A stretch of DNA of 64,000 nt from positions 415,001-479,000 of the forward strand of contig JAOTOL010001369.1 of NCBI GenBank assembly GCA_034440575.1. Reading direction: 5' to 3'. Source of the DNA: Imbricaverruca yamaguchii (Eukaryota; Arthropoda; Thecostraca; Neoverrucidae). The notes under the pieces were generated by a model that was not told where the DNA came from, searched no databases, and worked only from the letters and a program-made list of their open reading frames with translations. Within the stretch, counting starts at the first letter, position 1, and every line of letters begins with the position of its first letter. A program made the position numbers and the translations under genes. Shown one piece after another: positions 4,304 through 63,369 of the stretch.

Positions 4304-7300
4304 GTGCTCAACTACACAATGAAAATCGGACGTATATTGGGTGTACAACAAATCTCGACTTTGTTTGCATGTGTTGTGACGGTGGCGAGACATTTTTATT
4401 TATTTTCTAATTCGACGTTAAAAATATACGTATGACCATAACCAATAAACATACAATTTTCAAGTATTACCTTTGTGTGCAAGACTATCACCGGTACGTC
4501 CATAACGTCGTATCGAGGAAACGCAAAAGTTACCCCGAGCAGCGTCCTCAAAGTCTTCGCTAAATATGCCTTACCTTAGGATTTAATTTTTACTTTTTAA
4601 ATTTCGGAACGGTTACCGATCGCGCCCTCGGTGACCTTCAACCGTTCGGATTTGGCGAGCGAAAAGAATAGCGTGGGTGGCGGAATTCCCTCCCCCTCCC
4701 TCCCTCCTCTCTCCGTGCAAGAGTTACTGTCAATGGAGTTCCATCAGTATAATGACCATAAAATATCACGAGGTTTCGGCATGTGAAGCTACAAACTTTA
4801 ACGCCCTCCTGTGTGAAACTGAATGATGGAAGGTGATGTGTCGTACTGTTGTCGACTGTAGAACTCTGGCTTTTGCAGCCGCACCGGGCGTTCGAAGGGT
4901 TTGCAGAAGAGACTGTGTAACTCTGGCTGGTGACTTTTGCAGGAGCTCTTGCAGGCGCACCGGGTGTTCGAAGAGTTTCGTCAGAGAACATTGGAGCACC
5001 ACGAGACTCTCGTGTTCCAAGTGATGTGCGGCGACTTCAACTACGACAACATGTCGCCAGGTACCATCAGAAGGGGAGGGGTGGGGCAACCTGTCGCTAG
5101 GGACCAACAAGAAGGGAAGGGTAGGGCAACATGTCATCAGGTACCATCACAATGGGGAGGGGTGGGACATGTCGACAGGTACCATCGAAGGGGGAGTGGC
5201 AGGACAATGTCGCCAGGTGCCAACAAAAGGGGAGGGGTAGGACAGCGTGTCGTCAGGGGCTATTAAAAGGGGGGTCTAAGATTCGGTCTGAGATTGGCTT
5301 ACCAAACCCTTCAACATCTCCCATCGAGTGTGATCACACCATGAACCTCGCAGGTAGCCTGACCCGCAAACACTGGTGTGCCGCGGCACAGAGTTCGTGT
5401 CGAGGCTGTTCAGGGTCCGAGCTATCCCGGTTCGGTGGGCTCTTTGTGGCGGCAATTGCACAGGCTGCGGACTGAGCCGGCCGTCGCTTCGCAGGCGATG
5501 TCGACAACCAGAACCACCCGCTGTTCGAGGACTACGACGACTTCTGCCGTCTCCGACCCGGCCAGGACAAGCCCTGGACTGTCGGTGAGTGGACTGCAGC
5601 GTTCTAAAATTACTTCATCATTAACTGTGTGGATGAAAAAATGGAGCTGCTTTGGAAAAGTGAAAGATTAGAAGAAAATGCAGGAGTGCCACTTCAGGAA
5701 TTAAAAAAAAACAATCCCTTTCACTTCAGTCACACGCATTTTACATTATTTAGCAATCGTGTGTATGATAACTGCTCACACATCATGTGGCAGAATGGTG
5801 AAAGTCTGAGACAAGGATGAAACACAATTCCATTAACTGTGAACTTCCAGGTCACATGGTCAATTATTTTACAATGGTGGACTGGGCAGCGGCGCACGTG
5901 TGAGTCCTCGACTCGCTTTGCTTTTATGTCGCCCGAGTCCTCGACTCGCTTTGGGTATGTTGCCGTCTGTCCTTAAAGTGCACCCGAGGACGGTACATGC
6001 CGGTATTCCTTGGATTCCTTTCCTCATGGAGCAACGTTCGTTGCAGAGGGAGGGAGGGAGGGAGGGAGGGACGGAGGGAGAGAGAGGGACGGAGGGAGAG
6101 AGGGACGGAGGGAGAGAGAGGGACGGAGGGAGAGAGAGGGACGGAGGGAGAGAGGGAGGGAGGGAGGGAGGGAGGGAGGGAGGGAGGGAGGGGGGAGGGA
6201 GGGAGGGAGGGGGAGGGAGGGAGGGAGGGAGGGAGGGAGGGGAGGGAGGGAGAGGGAGAGGGAGGGAGAGGGAGGGAGAGAGAGACATAGAGACATAGAG
6301 AGAAAAAGTACATTTTTGTATGTGCAATACATTTAGTGGAATAATTTTCAAAAGTACTTAATCACTATTGTAAGTCATGTAATATCTTCAAATAGTACCG
6401 AGTGAGCTAGGCGCTAACATATATAAAAATCATACACAAAAAAAACTCAGACATTTCTGCAGCATCAACGTATTCGAAAATCCTGGATCCTGAACTCGAA
6501 TTGAAAAGGTTATGCATAAACTCGTGATCAGCCACACCACTGGAGCACGTGCGCCAAGATGTAGCAAGTTGCCGCCACGTCAGCCGACGACGCTGATGCG
6601 TCACACCGCCGCCTGGTGGTCGCGAAGCCGCTCCACGGGGACGGAGATGCGCCAGCTGATTATGCTCGATGGTGCCGCTCGACGGGGACGGAGATGCGCC
6701 AGCTGATGATGTTCGATGGTGCCGCTCGACAGGGACGGAGATGCGCCAGCTGATGATGTTCGATGGTGCCGCTCGACAGGGACGGAGATGCGCCAGCTGA
6801 TGATGTTCGATGAGCGTCTCAACAGCCCGAGCACGTTCGGCGCAATCCTGGCGGACGCCACGGAGCGGCGGCGGTTCGTGCTGGACGCCGACGTGCAGGT
6901 GAGCTGCCGACGTGCAGGTGAGCTGCCGACGTGCAGGTGAGCTGCCGACGTGCAGGTGAGCTGCCGACGTGCAGGTGAGCTGCCGACGTGCAGGTGAGCT
7001 GCCGACGTGCAGGTGAGCTGCCGACGTGCAGGTGAGCTGCCGACGTGCAGGTGAGCTGCCGACGTGCAGGTGAGCCGCCGGCAGAGTCCCGTGCAGTGTG
7101 TGTGCCGGCCGAGCCTGCAGACCGAGCAGTGACTGAGGCTGCTGTGTTGTCCGCTGTCTGCCGTTGTTTATGGGGTGGAAGAACCTGAGTGGGTGTTTGT
7201 TTGTTTATTGGGTGGTTCACGACACACTTTATGCATATTCACGGCTAATGGCGCCGCCCACACTGTTTCGCCGGTGGGCCGCGGGATTGGGAAATGTTCC

Positions 7301-62100: not shown

Positions 62101-63369
62101 AGGGCTTAACACGAGGATGAAACAGCCGTAGAATGGCAAGTCATTTAATTAACTTCACCTGCCCGGTTCCAATTTCTAAGGTACGTATTGTCCTTCATTA
62201 TTACCACGGACCACCATCTGCAAGGATGGTGCACTTCACACATCATTTTAACAAGCAACCTAATGGAAAGCAAACTGCAGCTAGCAACAGCCATGAGCAA
62301 CATGCGATCAAGGGGGTGAGTAGTCTAGGGGTAAGTTGCTCGTCTCACAATCCAAAGGTTGTGAGTTCGAGTCTCACCTGTCGCTACTCCTCGCCCGCGA
62401 CCAATCGGCGTGAGAGATTGGCGACGGTGCATGACTCGACGGTCGATGTGTCGTAAAACCAATAACCAACCAACATGCGACCACCATTAACAAGGGTAGG
62501 GTCAGCAGTCAGGCTCCAGTCAGCAGCCGCACCTGTCCCGTCTCCTCTATCAGGGTGACGTTGGTCTTGACGCCGAGCGGCCAGTTGACGTGCAGGTTGT
62601 CCTTGTTCAGCTGCAGCAGGAACACGATCAGGCAGTAGAGCGCGTTGCACATGAAGAAGATGAAGACCGACTGGTTGCGCAGTTCGGCCAGGTCGTTGGC
62701 GATGCGGGTCTGCAGCGAGCCGGGACGGTGTGAGCGGAGTAGTGAGCCGCGATGGTCACGATGGTCGGCATGGGCAGCAACAGCGGGCGTCGAGTCTTCT
62801 TCATCGTCAAAAATTACTACTCCAAATCATACCGAGAGTGTGGTTCGTTAAACATTCATTTGCAGAATGTTGTCTCGGCGTATGCTCACAGGAAGACATC
62901 ATGAGCACGAAGCAGACAAATGGTGTCGCGAAAGCCGAATGACGACGCACGTACACACGCTTTAACATTTGGGTTGCTCCCCACACAGGGCCCAACGCCC
63001 GAAACTTCAGCACGTGTGTCTAGCACATCGTCCAAGAACAGCCGCGGTGCTGCTCGTTGCATAACCGGGACGCTTAATGGGACTGTTGACACGCCAGACA
63101 GGCAGATGGAATAACTTGGAAATGTTAGTGTGAATGCCGTCGTGTGGTACAGTCGTTCCGATCTGATGGAGACAGTCGTCACGCGCGTACCCAGTCGAAC
63201 CGTACCTTCTCGGCTTTGTCCTCGTCGATGGGAAAGAGATACTTGGCCAGCAGATCGTTCCAGAACTGCACCTCGTTGGGCTGCAGGTACTCCACCTTGC
63301 CCTTTCGCAGCACCTTGTCTTCGATCCAGAGTGGGTTCTTCAGCTGGTCTCTCTTCTCTTTCGGCTCGC
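58967..63369 (-). CDS. Chitin synthase CHS-B, 3' part (last six exons)
   Basis: C-terminal third of a second plasma-membrane chitin synthase. Exons on the minus strand: 63369-63206, 62709-62533, 61967-61800, 60929-60701, 59775-59630 and 59155-58967, joining in phase into 1,073 nt (357 codons with the stop). They correspond one for one to CHS-A exons 16-21 with identical phases. The product has [20 protein letters not shown], two membrane spans ([40 protein letters not shown]) and a basic tail with ARRKTIQNL and [12 protein letters not shown], as in CHS1/kkv proteins. The catalytic part lies beyond 64000. It is more conserved than CHS-A, so CHS1 identity is favoured but unproven. A recent SINE sits just upstream of the last exon. 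Confidence 0.92.
59184..59373 (+). mobile_element. SINE family 1, intact, with perfect 13-bp target duplication
   Basis: Flanked by GTGTCCGATGAAG at 59171-59183 and 59374-59386. Head GGCGTTGGCCGAGTGGTTAA, B box CGGGTTCGACACTCCC, body GGCGGCGCCATTAGCCGTGA, tail AACAAACAAACAAACAAAAC. Perfect duplication implies a recent insertion. It is antisense to CHS-B and 15 bp upstream of the last acceptor. Confidence 0.95.
59630..59775 (-). CDS. CHS-B exon, basic tail (equivalent to CHS-A exon 20)
   Basis: Acceptor GGTGTTTCAG, donor AAAAAG|GTACAG; phase 1 to 0. Encodes [20 protein letters not shown] then [20 protein letters not shown]. Same phases and composition as CHS-A exon 20 (NMSKRRATIKAFQDRRKSVQ). 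Confidence 0.85.
59776..60409 (-). other. CHS-B intron, unique part
   Basis: No gene or repeat. A 13-bp GGAAGAATTTGA duplication lies at 59865-59890. Confidence 0.5.
60410..60640 (-). repeat. 21-bp x~10 array near a CHS-B donor
   Basis: On the plus strand, CTCACCCCTCACATCGGTGA plus C recurs. Read on the minus strand each unit holds GGGGTGAGGGTCACC, with GGTGAG donor-like hexamers. It lies about 60 bp past the donor at 60701. Confidence 0.9.
60701..60929 (-). CDS. CHS-B exon, cytosolic tail (equivalent to CHS-A exon 19)
   Basis: Acceptor CCGTCACCAG, donor GCCGAGG|GTGAGC; phase 0 to 1. Encodes [20 protein letters not shown] then [20 protein letters not shown] and [20 protein letters not shown], very close to CHS1 proteins. 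Confidence 0.95.
60930..61365 (-). other. CHS-B intron, unique part
   Basis: No gene recognised. Confidence 0.5.
61366..61535. repeat. (TA)n-rich tract
   Basis: TATATA with CA interruptions over about 170 bases. Spurious low-complexity ORFs. Confidence 0.97.
61565..61785 (-). repeat. 30-bp x~7.5 array just after a CHS-B donor
   Basis: On the plus strand the unit reads GTGACGTGCCGTGACGTGGT then GTGATTGTGG. It ends about 15 bases from the donor at 61799. Confidence 0.95.
61800..61967 (-). CDS. CHS-B exon, last membrane span (equivalent to CHS-A exon 18)
   Basis: Acceptor CCATTCGCAG, donor TCTGAG|GTGAGC; phase 0 to 0. Encodes [20 protein letters not shown] then [20 protein letters not shown] and [14 protein letters not shown]. 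Confidence 0.96.
61968..62307 (-). other. CHS-B intron, unique part
   Basis: No gene recognised. Confidence 0.5.
62308..62471 (+). mobile_element. SINE family 2, intact, with target duplication
   Basis: Head GGTGAGTAGTCTAGGGGTAA, B box GAGTTCGAGTCTCACC, body CGCGACCAATCGGCGTGAGA, tail AAAACCAATAACCAACC. AACATGCGA flanks both sides (62299-62307 and 62472-62480). Antisense to CHS-B. Confidence 0.9.
62533..62709 (-). CDS. CHS-B exon, 59 codons (equivalent to CHS-A exon 17)
   Basis: Acceptor CTCGCTGCAG, donor GGACAG|GTGCGG; phase 0 to 0. Encodes [20 protein letters not shown] then [20 protein letters not shown] and [19 protein letters not shown]. Exactly 177 nt, the size of the alternatively spliced exon of insect CHS1. 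No partner copy was seen in the two flanking introns. Confidence 0.96.
63206..63369 (-). CDS. CHS-B exon (equivalent to CHS-A exon 16)
   Basis: Acceptor GTTCCCTCAG, donor GAGAAG|GTACGG; phase 1 to 0. Encodes [20 protein letters not shown] then [20 protein letters not shown] and [14 protein letters not shown]. Confidence 0.95.

Follow-up and report, generated by a model that had tools for sequence, protein, structure and literature searches.

The exon-intron boundaries of the genes in a 64,000-nucleotide stretch of the genome of Imbricaverruca yamaguchii (Arthropoda; Thecostraca; Neoverrucidae) are accompanied by minisatellites, some of which contain the splice site itself in many copies. This stretch, called the window hereafter, is positions 415,001 to 479,000 of contig JAOTOL010001369.1 (C1136:415001-479000) in a 767-Mb assembly of 1430 contigs (GCA_034440575.1). 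Positions are counted from its first letter unless a contig is named. The genes modelled in the window are as follows.

4211..8325, plus strand: gene 1, 3' part of a sphingomyelinase gene (SMPD3-like), five 3' exons (4211-4303, 4943-5060, 5495-5584, 6780-6898 and 8119-8325, the last with the stop codon), supported by in-frame splicing and by PDB entry 5uvg
14916..42939, plus strand: gene 2, chitin synthase, 15 exons modelled, supported by in-frame splicing and Pfam
45092..51557, plus strand: six modelled C-terminal exons of chitin synthase, supported by in-frame splicing and by 44% identity to gene 3
58967..63369, minus strand: gene 3, a second chitin synthase, six 3' exons, with the 5' part outside the window

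The modelled exons of all genes splice in frame at GT/AG, and the spliced translations have no internal stops; the in-frame model of the minus-strand chitin synthase uses exon 60929-60701. The sphingomyelinase product aligns to the solved sphingomyelin phosphodiesterase 3 (5uvg, E 3e-26), and this alignment is gap-free across the D5060/A5495 and D5584/A6780 junctions (D, donor; A, acceptor). The same comparison aligns poorly around the D6898/A8119 junction, which therefore stands outside its support. Middle exons of gene 2 match Pfam families PF03142 (E 1.3e-24) and PF23000 (E 2.1e-14), and the two C-terminal regions of chitin synthase, the exons at 45092-51557 and those of gene 3, are 44% identical over 284 columns. 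A pair of chitin synthases with such a C-terminal arrangement is in keeping with an arthropod.

Tandem Repeats Finder (TRF) gave 88 rows in the window, which were merged to 41 arrays, 39 of them not inside exons; the window has 59 modelled splice sites (28 donors and 31 acceptors). An initial annotation, made from the letters of the sequence, had named 11 junctions at which an array starts, ends or contains a splice site. All 11 are GT/AG sites of the gene models at the positions named. Eight of them lie inside a TRF array, namely donors 5060, 6898, 14992, 23042, 31326 and 32907 and the acceptors of exons 6780 and 8119, although donor 23042 and the acceptor of exon 8119 do so by a single base. 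The other three are near an array and not inside it: the acceptor of exon 42711 at 5 bp, minus-strand donor 61800 at about 22 bp, and the acceptor of exon 32719 at 34 bp. The description therefore holds for nine of the 11, which touch or abut an array, and is too strong for 32718 and 61800. Two further sites had been overlooked, the acceptor of exon 22817 (1 bp from an array) and minus-strand donor 60701 (26 bp). The arrays concerned, and those beside stop codons, are listed here.

5047..5258, plus strand: 38-40 bp unit, holds donor 5060 and 14 exon bases (TRF)
6627..6812, plus strand: 47 bp x 4.0, holds the acceptor of exon 6780 and 33 exon bases (TRF)
6887..7080, plus strand: 19 bp x 10.2, holds donor 6898 and 12 exon bases; 10 donor-like sites
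7601..8119, plus strand: 27 bp x 18.7, last base is the first base of exon 8119 (TRF); the units bear TTACAG acceptor-like sites
8329..8474, plus strand: 41 bp x 3.6, begins 3 bp past the stop codon of gene 1
14985..15380, plus strand: 23 bp unit, holds donor 14992 and 8 exon bases; 15 donor-like sites
22278..22815, plus strand: 24/47/94 bp unit, ends 1 bp short of the acceptor of exon 22817
23042..23677, plus strand: 10 bp x about 59 (GGTGAGGGCT), begins on the final base of the exon, at donor 23042; 45 donor-like sites
31316..32144, plus strand: 27 bp unit, holds donor 31326 and 11 exon bases; 30 donor-like sites
32263..32684, plus strand: 28 bp x 15, stops 34 bp short of the acceptor of exon 32719, which it does not contain
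32905..32960, plus strand: 18 bp x 3.1, holds donor 32907 and 3 exon bases
42358..42705, plus strand: 18 bp x 19.3, stops 5 bp short of the acceptor of exon 42711
51584..52306, plus strand: begins 26 bp past the stop at 51557
58728..58955, minus strand: 32 bp x 7.1, 11 bp past the stop of gene 3
60375..60674, minus strand: 22/44 bp unit, lies in the intron 26 bp from donor 60701; its sense strand has 14 donor-like sites
61583..61778, minus strand: 31 bp x 6.3, lies in the intron about 22 bp from donor 61800

The unit lengths given initially were correct overall, with 23 bp found for a stated 24 and 31 bp for a stated 30. Two other statements stood: the arrays are unrelated to each other, with no cross matches among the 41 window arrays by blastn (E 1e-3), and the junction arrays carry the local exon edge together with its splice site (12, 8, 11 and 3 exon bases at 6898, 14992, 31326 and 32907). 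By eye, a diverged duplicate of about 60 bp is also seen across the acceptor of exon 4943, at 4862-4945. TRF did not report it, and it is possibly an old two-copy example of the same kind.

The copying of splice sites was quantified with a position weight matrix (PWM) trained on these same genes, in which a score of at least 5.0 defines a donor-like site and the authentic site is counted. The arrays at donors 5060, 6898, 14992, 23042, 31326 and 32907 contain 6, 10, 15, 45, 30 and 3 such sites, respectively; three of the six at 5060 are in another phase. In the 6898 array, GCCGACGTGCAG followed by GTGAGCT is repeated about 10 times. These copies raise the thought of a selected function, by which additional copies of a donor or acceptor would make splicing stronger or more varied, and the copies do often match the authentic strength (9 of 10 score as high as the authentic donor at 6898, 26 of 30 at 31326). 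However, in three of the six donor arrays, translation continued beyond the authentic donor ends at a stop codon after 13, 1 and 4 residues (68, 45 and 43 residues in the others), and four of the six donor units have a length that is not divisible by three (38, 19, 23 and 10 bp, against 27 and 18 bp). Arrays that follow a stop codon have no splice role at all, and copy number at one site, described below, differs as 140 to 7 between two contigs. A selected function is thus very unlikely. Selection for reading frame on unit length was also considered and dropped, as the 41 periods leave remainders of 0, 1 and 2 modulo 3 in 17, 9 and 15 cases, without strong bias.

Another possibility is that the introns themselves were born from repeats, by tandem duplication of an exonic AGGT (the Rogers model). 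This model has been published with multi-copy cases, such as a 24-bp case in fission yeast (PMC4974935), and the boundary-spanning repeats of amphioxus have been proposed as a source of introns in the account of PMC3087553. It would leave the same repeat at both ends of an intron, and no such intron was found at the ten junction arrays of the window or in the cross-comparison of its 41 arrays. Introns 6899-8118 and 31327-32718, which do have arrays at or near both ends, have unrelated units there. Intron gain is accordingly the most improbable of the explanations considered here, and we give it hardly any weight.

Arrays are nearly excluded from exon interiors: they occupy 2.6% of exon bases and 21.5% of the bases elsewhere (40 of the 41 arrays). 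The only wholly exonic ones are two small arrays with 18-bp units in chitin synthase exons, at 17331-17366 and 31154-31207. The guanine plus cytosine (GC) content of the arrays is 0.608, that of exons 0.606, and that of other non-coding DNA in the window 0.487.

The observation that arrays sit at splice sites is confirmed by chance tests. In the window, 8 of 59 sites are inside an array; the count rises to 10 at distances of up to 5 bp and to 14 at up to 40 bp. When arrays were placed at random, with exon interiors kept free of them, 1.49 sites were expected inside and 1.70 within 5 bp, and none of 2000 placements was as high as observed. The same null with each array collapsed to one unit expects 1.67 inside (P 0.0003) and 1.92 within 5 bp (0 of 3000 placements). 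The result was kept with only the 30 arrays of score at least 100 (8 inside against 1.50, 0/3000) and with only the 22 of score at least 200 (6 against 1.13, P 0.0013), and GC-matched positions give 8/59 against 1.94 (P 0.0009). Random placement, which the initial annotation had proposed as a check over the whole genome, thus turned out in its favour within the window (8/59 inside and 10/59 within 5 bp, against 1.5-1.9 expected, P <= 0.0003). The window had been selected for its striking look, and its excess holds only relative to placement outside exon interiors, a comparison taken as the right one because exon interiors are nearly array-free. A circular shift that ignores exons expects a mean of 12 window sites inside arrays, above the observed 8, because arrays cover 21.5% of non-exonic bases; this null puts arrays over exons and was set aside as uninformative.

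Splice sites outside the window were sampled in CCT chaperonin and myosin head genes of other contigs. For CCT, 63 of 66 matches were used (those on C207, C1291 and C1365 were excluded), and for myosin 28 of the 72 matches listed, picked for adjoining query positions; each set made 20 stretches. Splice sites there were called by query continuity, phase and the PWM trained on the window. Skipped were 10 CCT pairs with a gap in the hidden Markov model (HMM) above 22 residues (two on C89), three poorly fitting CCT pairs, and two myosin pairs with a gap above 15. An array that ends 8 bp from an unpaired acceptor (L070) was left out of the counts, and so was contig C89, in place of which C1012 was kept.

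Five of 72 CCT sites are inside arrays against 2.47 by GC matching (P 0.10), and two of 32 myosin sites against 0.65 (P 0.14). Together these are 7/104 against 3.39 with all GC-matched controls (P 0.057), or against 2.7 when the controls lie 200 bp or more from exons (P 0.021); within 5 bp the count is also 7/104, against 4.12 (P 0.12). Enrichment elsewhere in the genome, which had been named as a check, therefore recurs in these genes at borderline significance. The boundary effect is about half as strong there as in the window, and is of borderline significance by itself. Over all sampled sites, 15 of 163 (about 9%) are inside arrays; donors contribute 10 of 80 and acceptors 5 of 83.

How array coverage changes with distance from the splice site was followed with each array collapsed to one unit; sites close to another exon or to the end of a stretch are lost, which makes the denominators vary. 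The pooled coverage at 0, +5, +10, +20, +30 and +40 bp is 15/161, 17/161, 13/161, 13/141, 14/140 and 14/140, where GC-matched far controls give 4.1, 4.2, 4.0, 3.4, 3.2 and 3.3. It is 8/139, 7/139, 8/139 and 5/139 at +50, +60, +80 and +100, 5/137 at both +150 and +200, 3/126 at +300 and 1/108 at +400; the expectation is 3.1, 2.7 and 2.1 at +60, +100 and +300. On the exon side, coverage is 6.2% at -10, 3.7% at -20, 1.2% at -40 and 0 at -60. Outside the window alone, the counts at 0, +5 and +10 are 7/104, 7/104 and 5/104 against 2.7, 2.7 and 2.6; at +20, +30 and +40 they are 8/84, 9/83 and 8/83 against 2.1 each; and at +50, +60, +100 and +300 they are 4/82, 4/82, 2/82 and 2/77 against 2.0, 1.9, 1.6 and 1.2. 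The highest point there is +30 (Poisson P 0.0003), at offsets that are neither independent nor chosen beforehand. The pooled values thus stay at 8-11% up to +40 and come close to background at +300, and the enrichment covers the flank from 0 to 40 bp rather than lying clearly at the splice site. Local GC drops from about 0.60 to 0.47 across the range of the profile, and far intron DNA is covered to at most 1.2% below GC 0.5 and to 2.2-3.5% above it. GC alone was nevertheless rejected as an explanation, since a 3.3- to 4.4-fold pooled excess remains at 0-40 bp after GC matching.

Arrays also adjoin stop codons. An array lies within 30 bp of three of the four modelled stop codons (stop and array edge at 8325-8329, 51557-51584 and 58955-58967), where 0.22 are expected (P 0.001). 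Splicing cannot explain these arrays, and what they share with the arrays at splice sites looks like a border of coding sequence, not splicing. The flank plateau and the stop-codon arrays suggest that the phenomenon is not boundary-specific in this genome.

These results bear on the idea, put forward initially, that the splice junctions seed the arrays through R-loops, transcription-linked slippage or a break-prone AG/GT motif. The window excess (8/59 against 1.5-1.7) speaks for such seeding, and the window and the donors each have a mild peak at 0-10 bp. However, the pooled profile of up to 161 sites has no peak above the flank from +5 to +40, and acceptors have no boundary peak (5/81 at 0, 8/76 at +40). 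Because pooled coverage is level to +40 bp, and arrays adjoin stop codons as well, junction-specific seeding was rejected as the main account. The mild peak leaves room for some junction effect, and we judge seeding by junctions unlikely. G skew is positive in all six donor arrays (0.07 to 0.71) and mixed in other intron arrays (-0.88 to 0.94); this says nothing on R-loops, because the GTGAG motif itself yields skew.

Word counts over the whole genome were also brought to this question. Pairs of a word at 14-44 bp spacing were counted per single occurrence, with the reversed word as control. The donor word CAGGTGAGT gives 1939 pairs per 10413 occurrences and its reverse 518 per 5264; MAGGTRAGT gives 2438 per 24169 and its reverse 796 per 26449. 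Without CAGGTGAGT, MAGGTRAGT still gives 499 per 13756 (3.6%) against 278 per 21185 (1.3%) for the reverse. The direction agrees with the sampled-site result, and the excess of paired donor words speaks for junction seeding. However, the reversed word leaves nearness to exons uncontrolled, and because every adjacent pair is counted, large arrays raise the figures: of the 100 CAGGTGAGT places among the matches listed, 97 belong to a single 3.8-kb array on C66. This array (G000, C66:21305-25140) holds at least 97 pairs of the perfect CAGGTGAGT donor word, mostly at 36-44 bp spacing.

Array length was compared at one CCT exon that is present on contigs C89 and C1012. The same donor-spanning array measures 9418 bp on C89 and 553 bp on C1012, with 140 and 7 exact copies of the exon tail plus donor, and with 124 and 4 strong donor scores. 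The longer one is the following feature.

C89:733-10151 (joined coordinates): 9.4-kb CCT donor array, L047-L049

The two contigs are 93-95% identical in the three longest aligned blocks and are therefore probably two haplotypes, with recent paralogy as the alternative. The other arrays listed on them are mostly near-equal in length, and for two short ones on C89 no counterpart is listed. Length instability between haplotype-like contigs is thus observed at this one locus.

The account that we consider probable is that these are minisatellites of the type published in amphioxus as 'mirages', lying on exon flanks and bounded by selection on the coding sequence, and not seeded by junctions. We infer the following order of events. 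A short tandem duplication would arise in the GC-rich DNA on or next to the edge of an exon, by slippage or repair, and the array would then lengthen and shorten like any minisatellite, by unequal exchange. If the unit lies across a donor, the conserved exon body would stay upstream of the first copy, and if it lies across an acceptor, downstream of the last copy. Indeed, the site that borders the conserved exon is the outermost one of its array. As the outermost splice site would still join the right exon, the duplication would be tolerated, and growth of the array would only lengthen the intron. Use of the outermost site would leave the protein unchanged, and use of an inner site would add sequence to it. 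The same tolerance would apply just past the stop codon. Duplications inside exons would break the protein and be removed unless the unit is a multiple of three; the 18-bp units of the two wholly exonic window arrays do keep the frame.

Several points weigh against this account. The sole use of the outermost site is deduced from protein conservation and array anatomy. The splice sites outside the window were called by our own PWM and a few fit badly (C1388 4695/5308, C991b 2010/3931), and the boundary excess there is modest (P 0.021-0.057), with P values that treat sites as independent. The window alone peaks at 0 to +10 (8, 10 and 8 of 57) compared with +20 to +40 (5, 5 and 6 of 57), and donors alone give 10/80 at 0 and +5, 7/80 at +10, and then 5/64, 6/64 and 6/64 at +20 to +40; these peaks are mild and the differences small. 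Finally, the 3.3- to 4.4-fold excess left after GC matching means that something beyond composition acts on the flank.

For this remaining excess, transposon turnover is the simplest candidate. Exon-flanking DNA would be old and intron interiors renewed by transposons, so that flanks had longer to gather arrays. Such an age effect needs no special mutation rate and is compatible with tolerated mirage-type arrays as the cause of their excess on flanks. It is in line with the decay of enrichment over 100-300 bp and with copies in the introns that look by eye like tRNA-derived short interspersed nuclear elements (SINEs), and otherwise comes from reasoning. Several junction arrays have 97-100% matches between copies (units of 19, 18 and 47 bp), which is not what old flanks alone predict, and we find this explanation rather doubtful. 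Only slightly less tentative is the idea that exon flanks truly act as mutational hotspots at which minisatellites are born, at a level some 3- to 4-fold above that of GC-matched intron DNA. If this were so, about one splice site in 10 would lie within a hypervariable array made of its own copies; the genome as a whole would then be a natural experiment in how splicing picks one among up to 140 near-identical sites, and new exons and introns would have a steady source of raw material.

The phenomenon is true and frequent in this genome, and its kind is already described. The mirages of amphioxus are published boundary-spanning minisatellites (PMC3087553, PMC3902484). In the cases presented there, tandem repeats span both 5' and 3' exon-intron boundaries of Adh3 and of globin genes, with units of 10-72 and about 150-160 bp (Adh3, BflGb6, BflGb9), haplotype differences in length and apparently normal splicing, and the mechanism was called unclear (PMC3087553). 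Mirages were also reported in amphioxus TnC and PGBD5, with units of 60 and 108 bp in PGBD5 (PMC3902484). The arrays described here are alike in that the units lie across the boundary (8/59 window sites and 7/104 others), that donors (10/80) and acceptors (5/83) are both hit, and, as far as the published cases are described, that many copies carry AG/GT signals and a haplotype-type length difference exists, here at one locus. By the amphioxus ranges given in that work, unit length agrees in 12 of the 15 junction-containing arrays: all eight in the window (10-47 bp) and four of the seven outside (20, 30, 47 and 68 bp), the other three (96, 79 and 77 bp) falling between the two ranges. Unlike amphioxus, the present animal belongs to a different group and the arrays are dense, with 10 of 59 window sites within 5 bp of an array and 15 of 163 sites inside one. 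Copy number also reaches 140, unlike in the amphioxus cases. The human 6-16 (G1P3/IFI6) minisatellite reportedly holds repeated donors as well, several of which are said to be used; it differs in being a single locus.

In human segmental-duplication genes, expansion of minisatellites with units of about 30 bp at exon-intron boundaries is described as altering gene structure (PMC2812944). As presented in that report, those repeats differ in belonging to recent paralogues, in averaging about four copies and in the novel introns that were inferred. Published cases of intron gain (Hellsten; potato RdRp; PMC4974935) share tandem copies of segments with splice signals, but as described they create a new intron, whereas the arrays here extend existing introns at one end. 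By contrast, the abundance reported for Daphnia pulex has repeats with units above 8 bp much sparser in introns than elsewhere (PMC3152781). Among titles and abstract openings, no boundary minisatellite of an arthropod was recognised in the literature, which is no proof of absence.

In the accounts cited, boundary minisatellites under the name 'mirages' come from a handful of lancelet genes. Here they occupy about 9% of sampled splice sites (15/163, or 7/104 without the window) in an unrelated animal, and housekeeping genes (CCT, myosin) are among those affected. A single genome thus allows tests of how the spliceosome adheres to the outermost site among many equivalent ones, and of how frequently tandem duplications at the edges of exons contribute to the gain of introns and exons. 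As arrays multiply credible splice sites, they are also a warning for gene annotators.

Some further features of the window were noted. The gene 2 model stops at 42939, and typical C-terminal chitin synthase exons follow at 45092-51557. The phase of the latter does not allow a direct join to exon 41709-41950; a separate gene, alternative 3' ends or an additional exon are possible. An additional chitin synthase match lies on the minus strand at C1136:482234-483064, on the side of gene 3. SINE-like, tRNA-derived copies were seen by eye at 7196-7376, 15616-15790, 43905-44085, 49779-49945 and 59186-59370. The Rfam tRNA match at 62314-62385 (29.4 bits, gathering threshold 29), which ARAGORN did not call, looks like another such copy.

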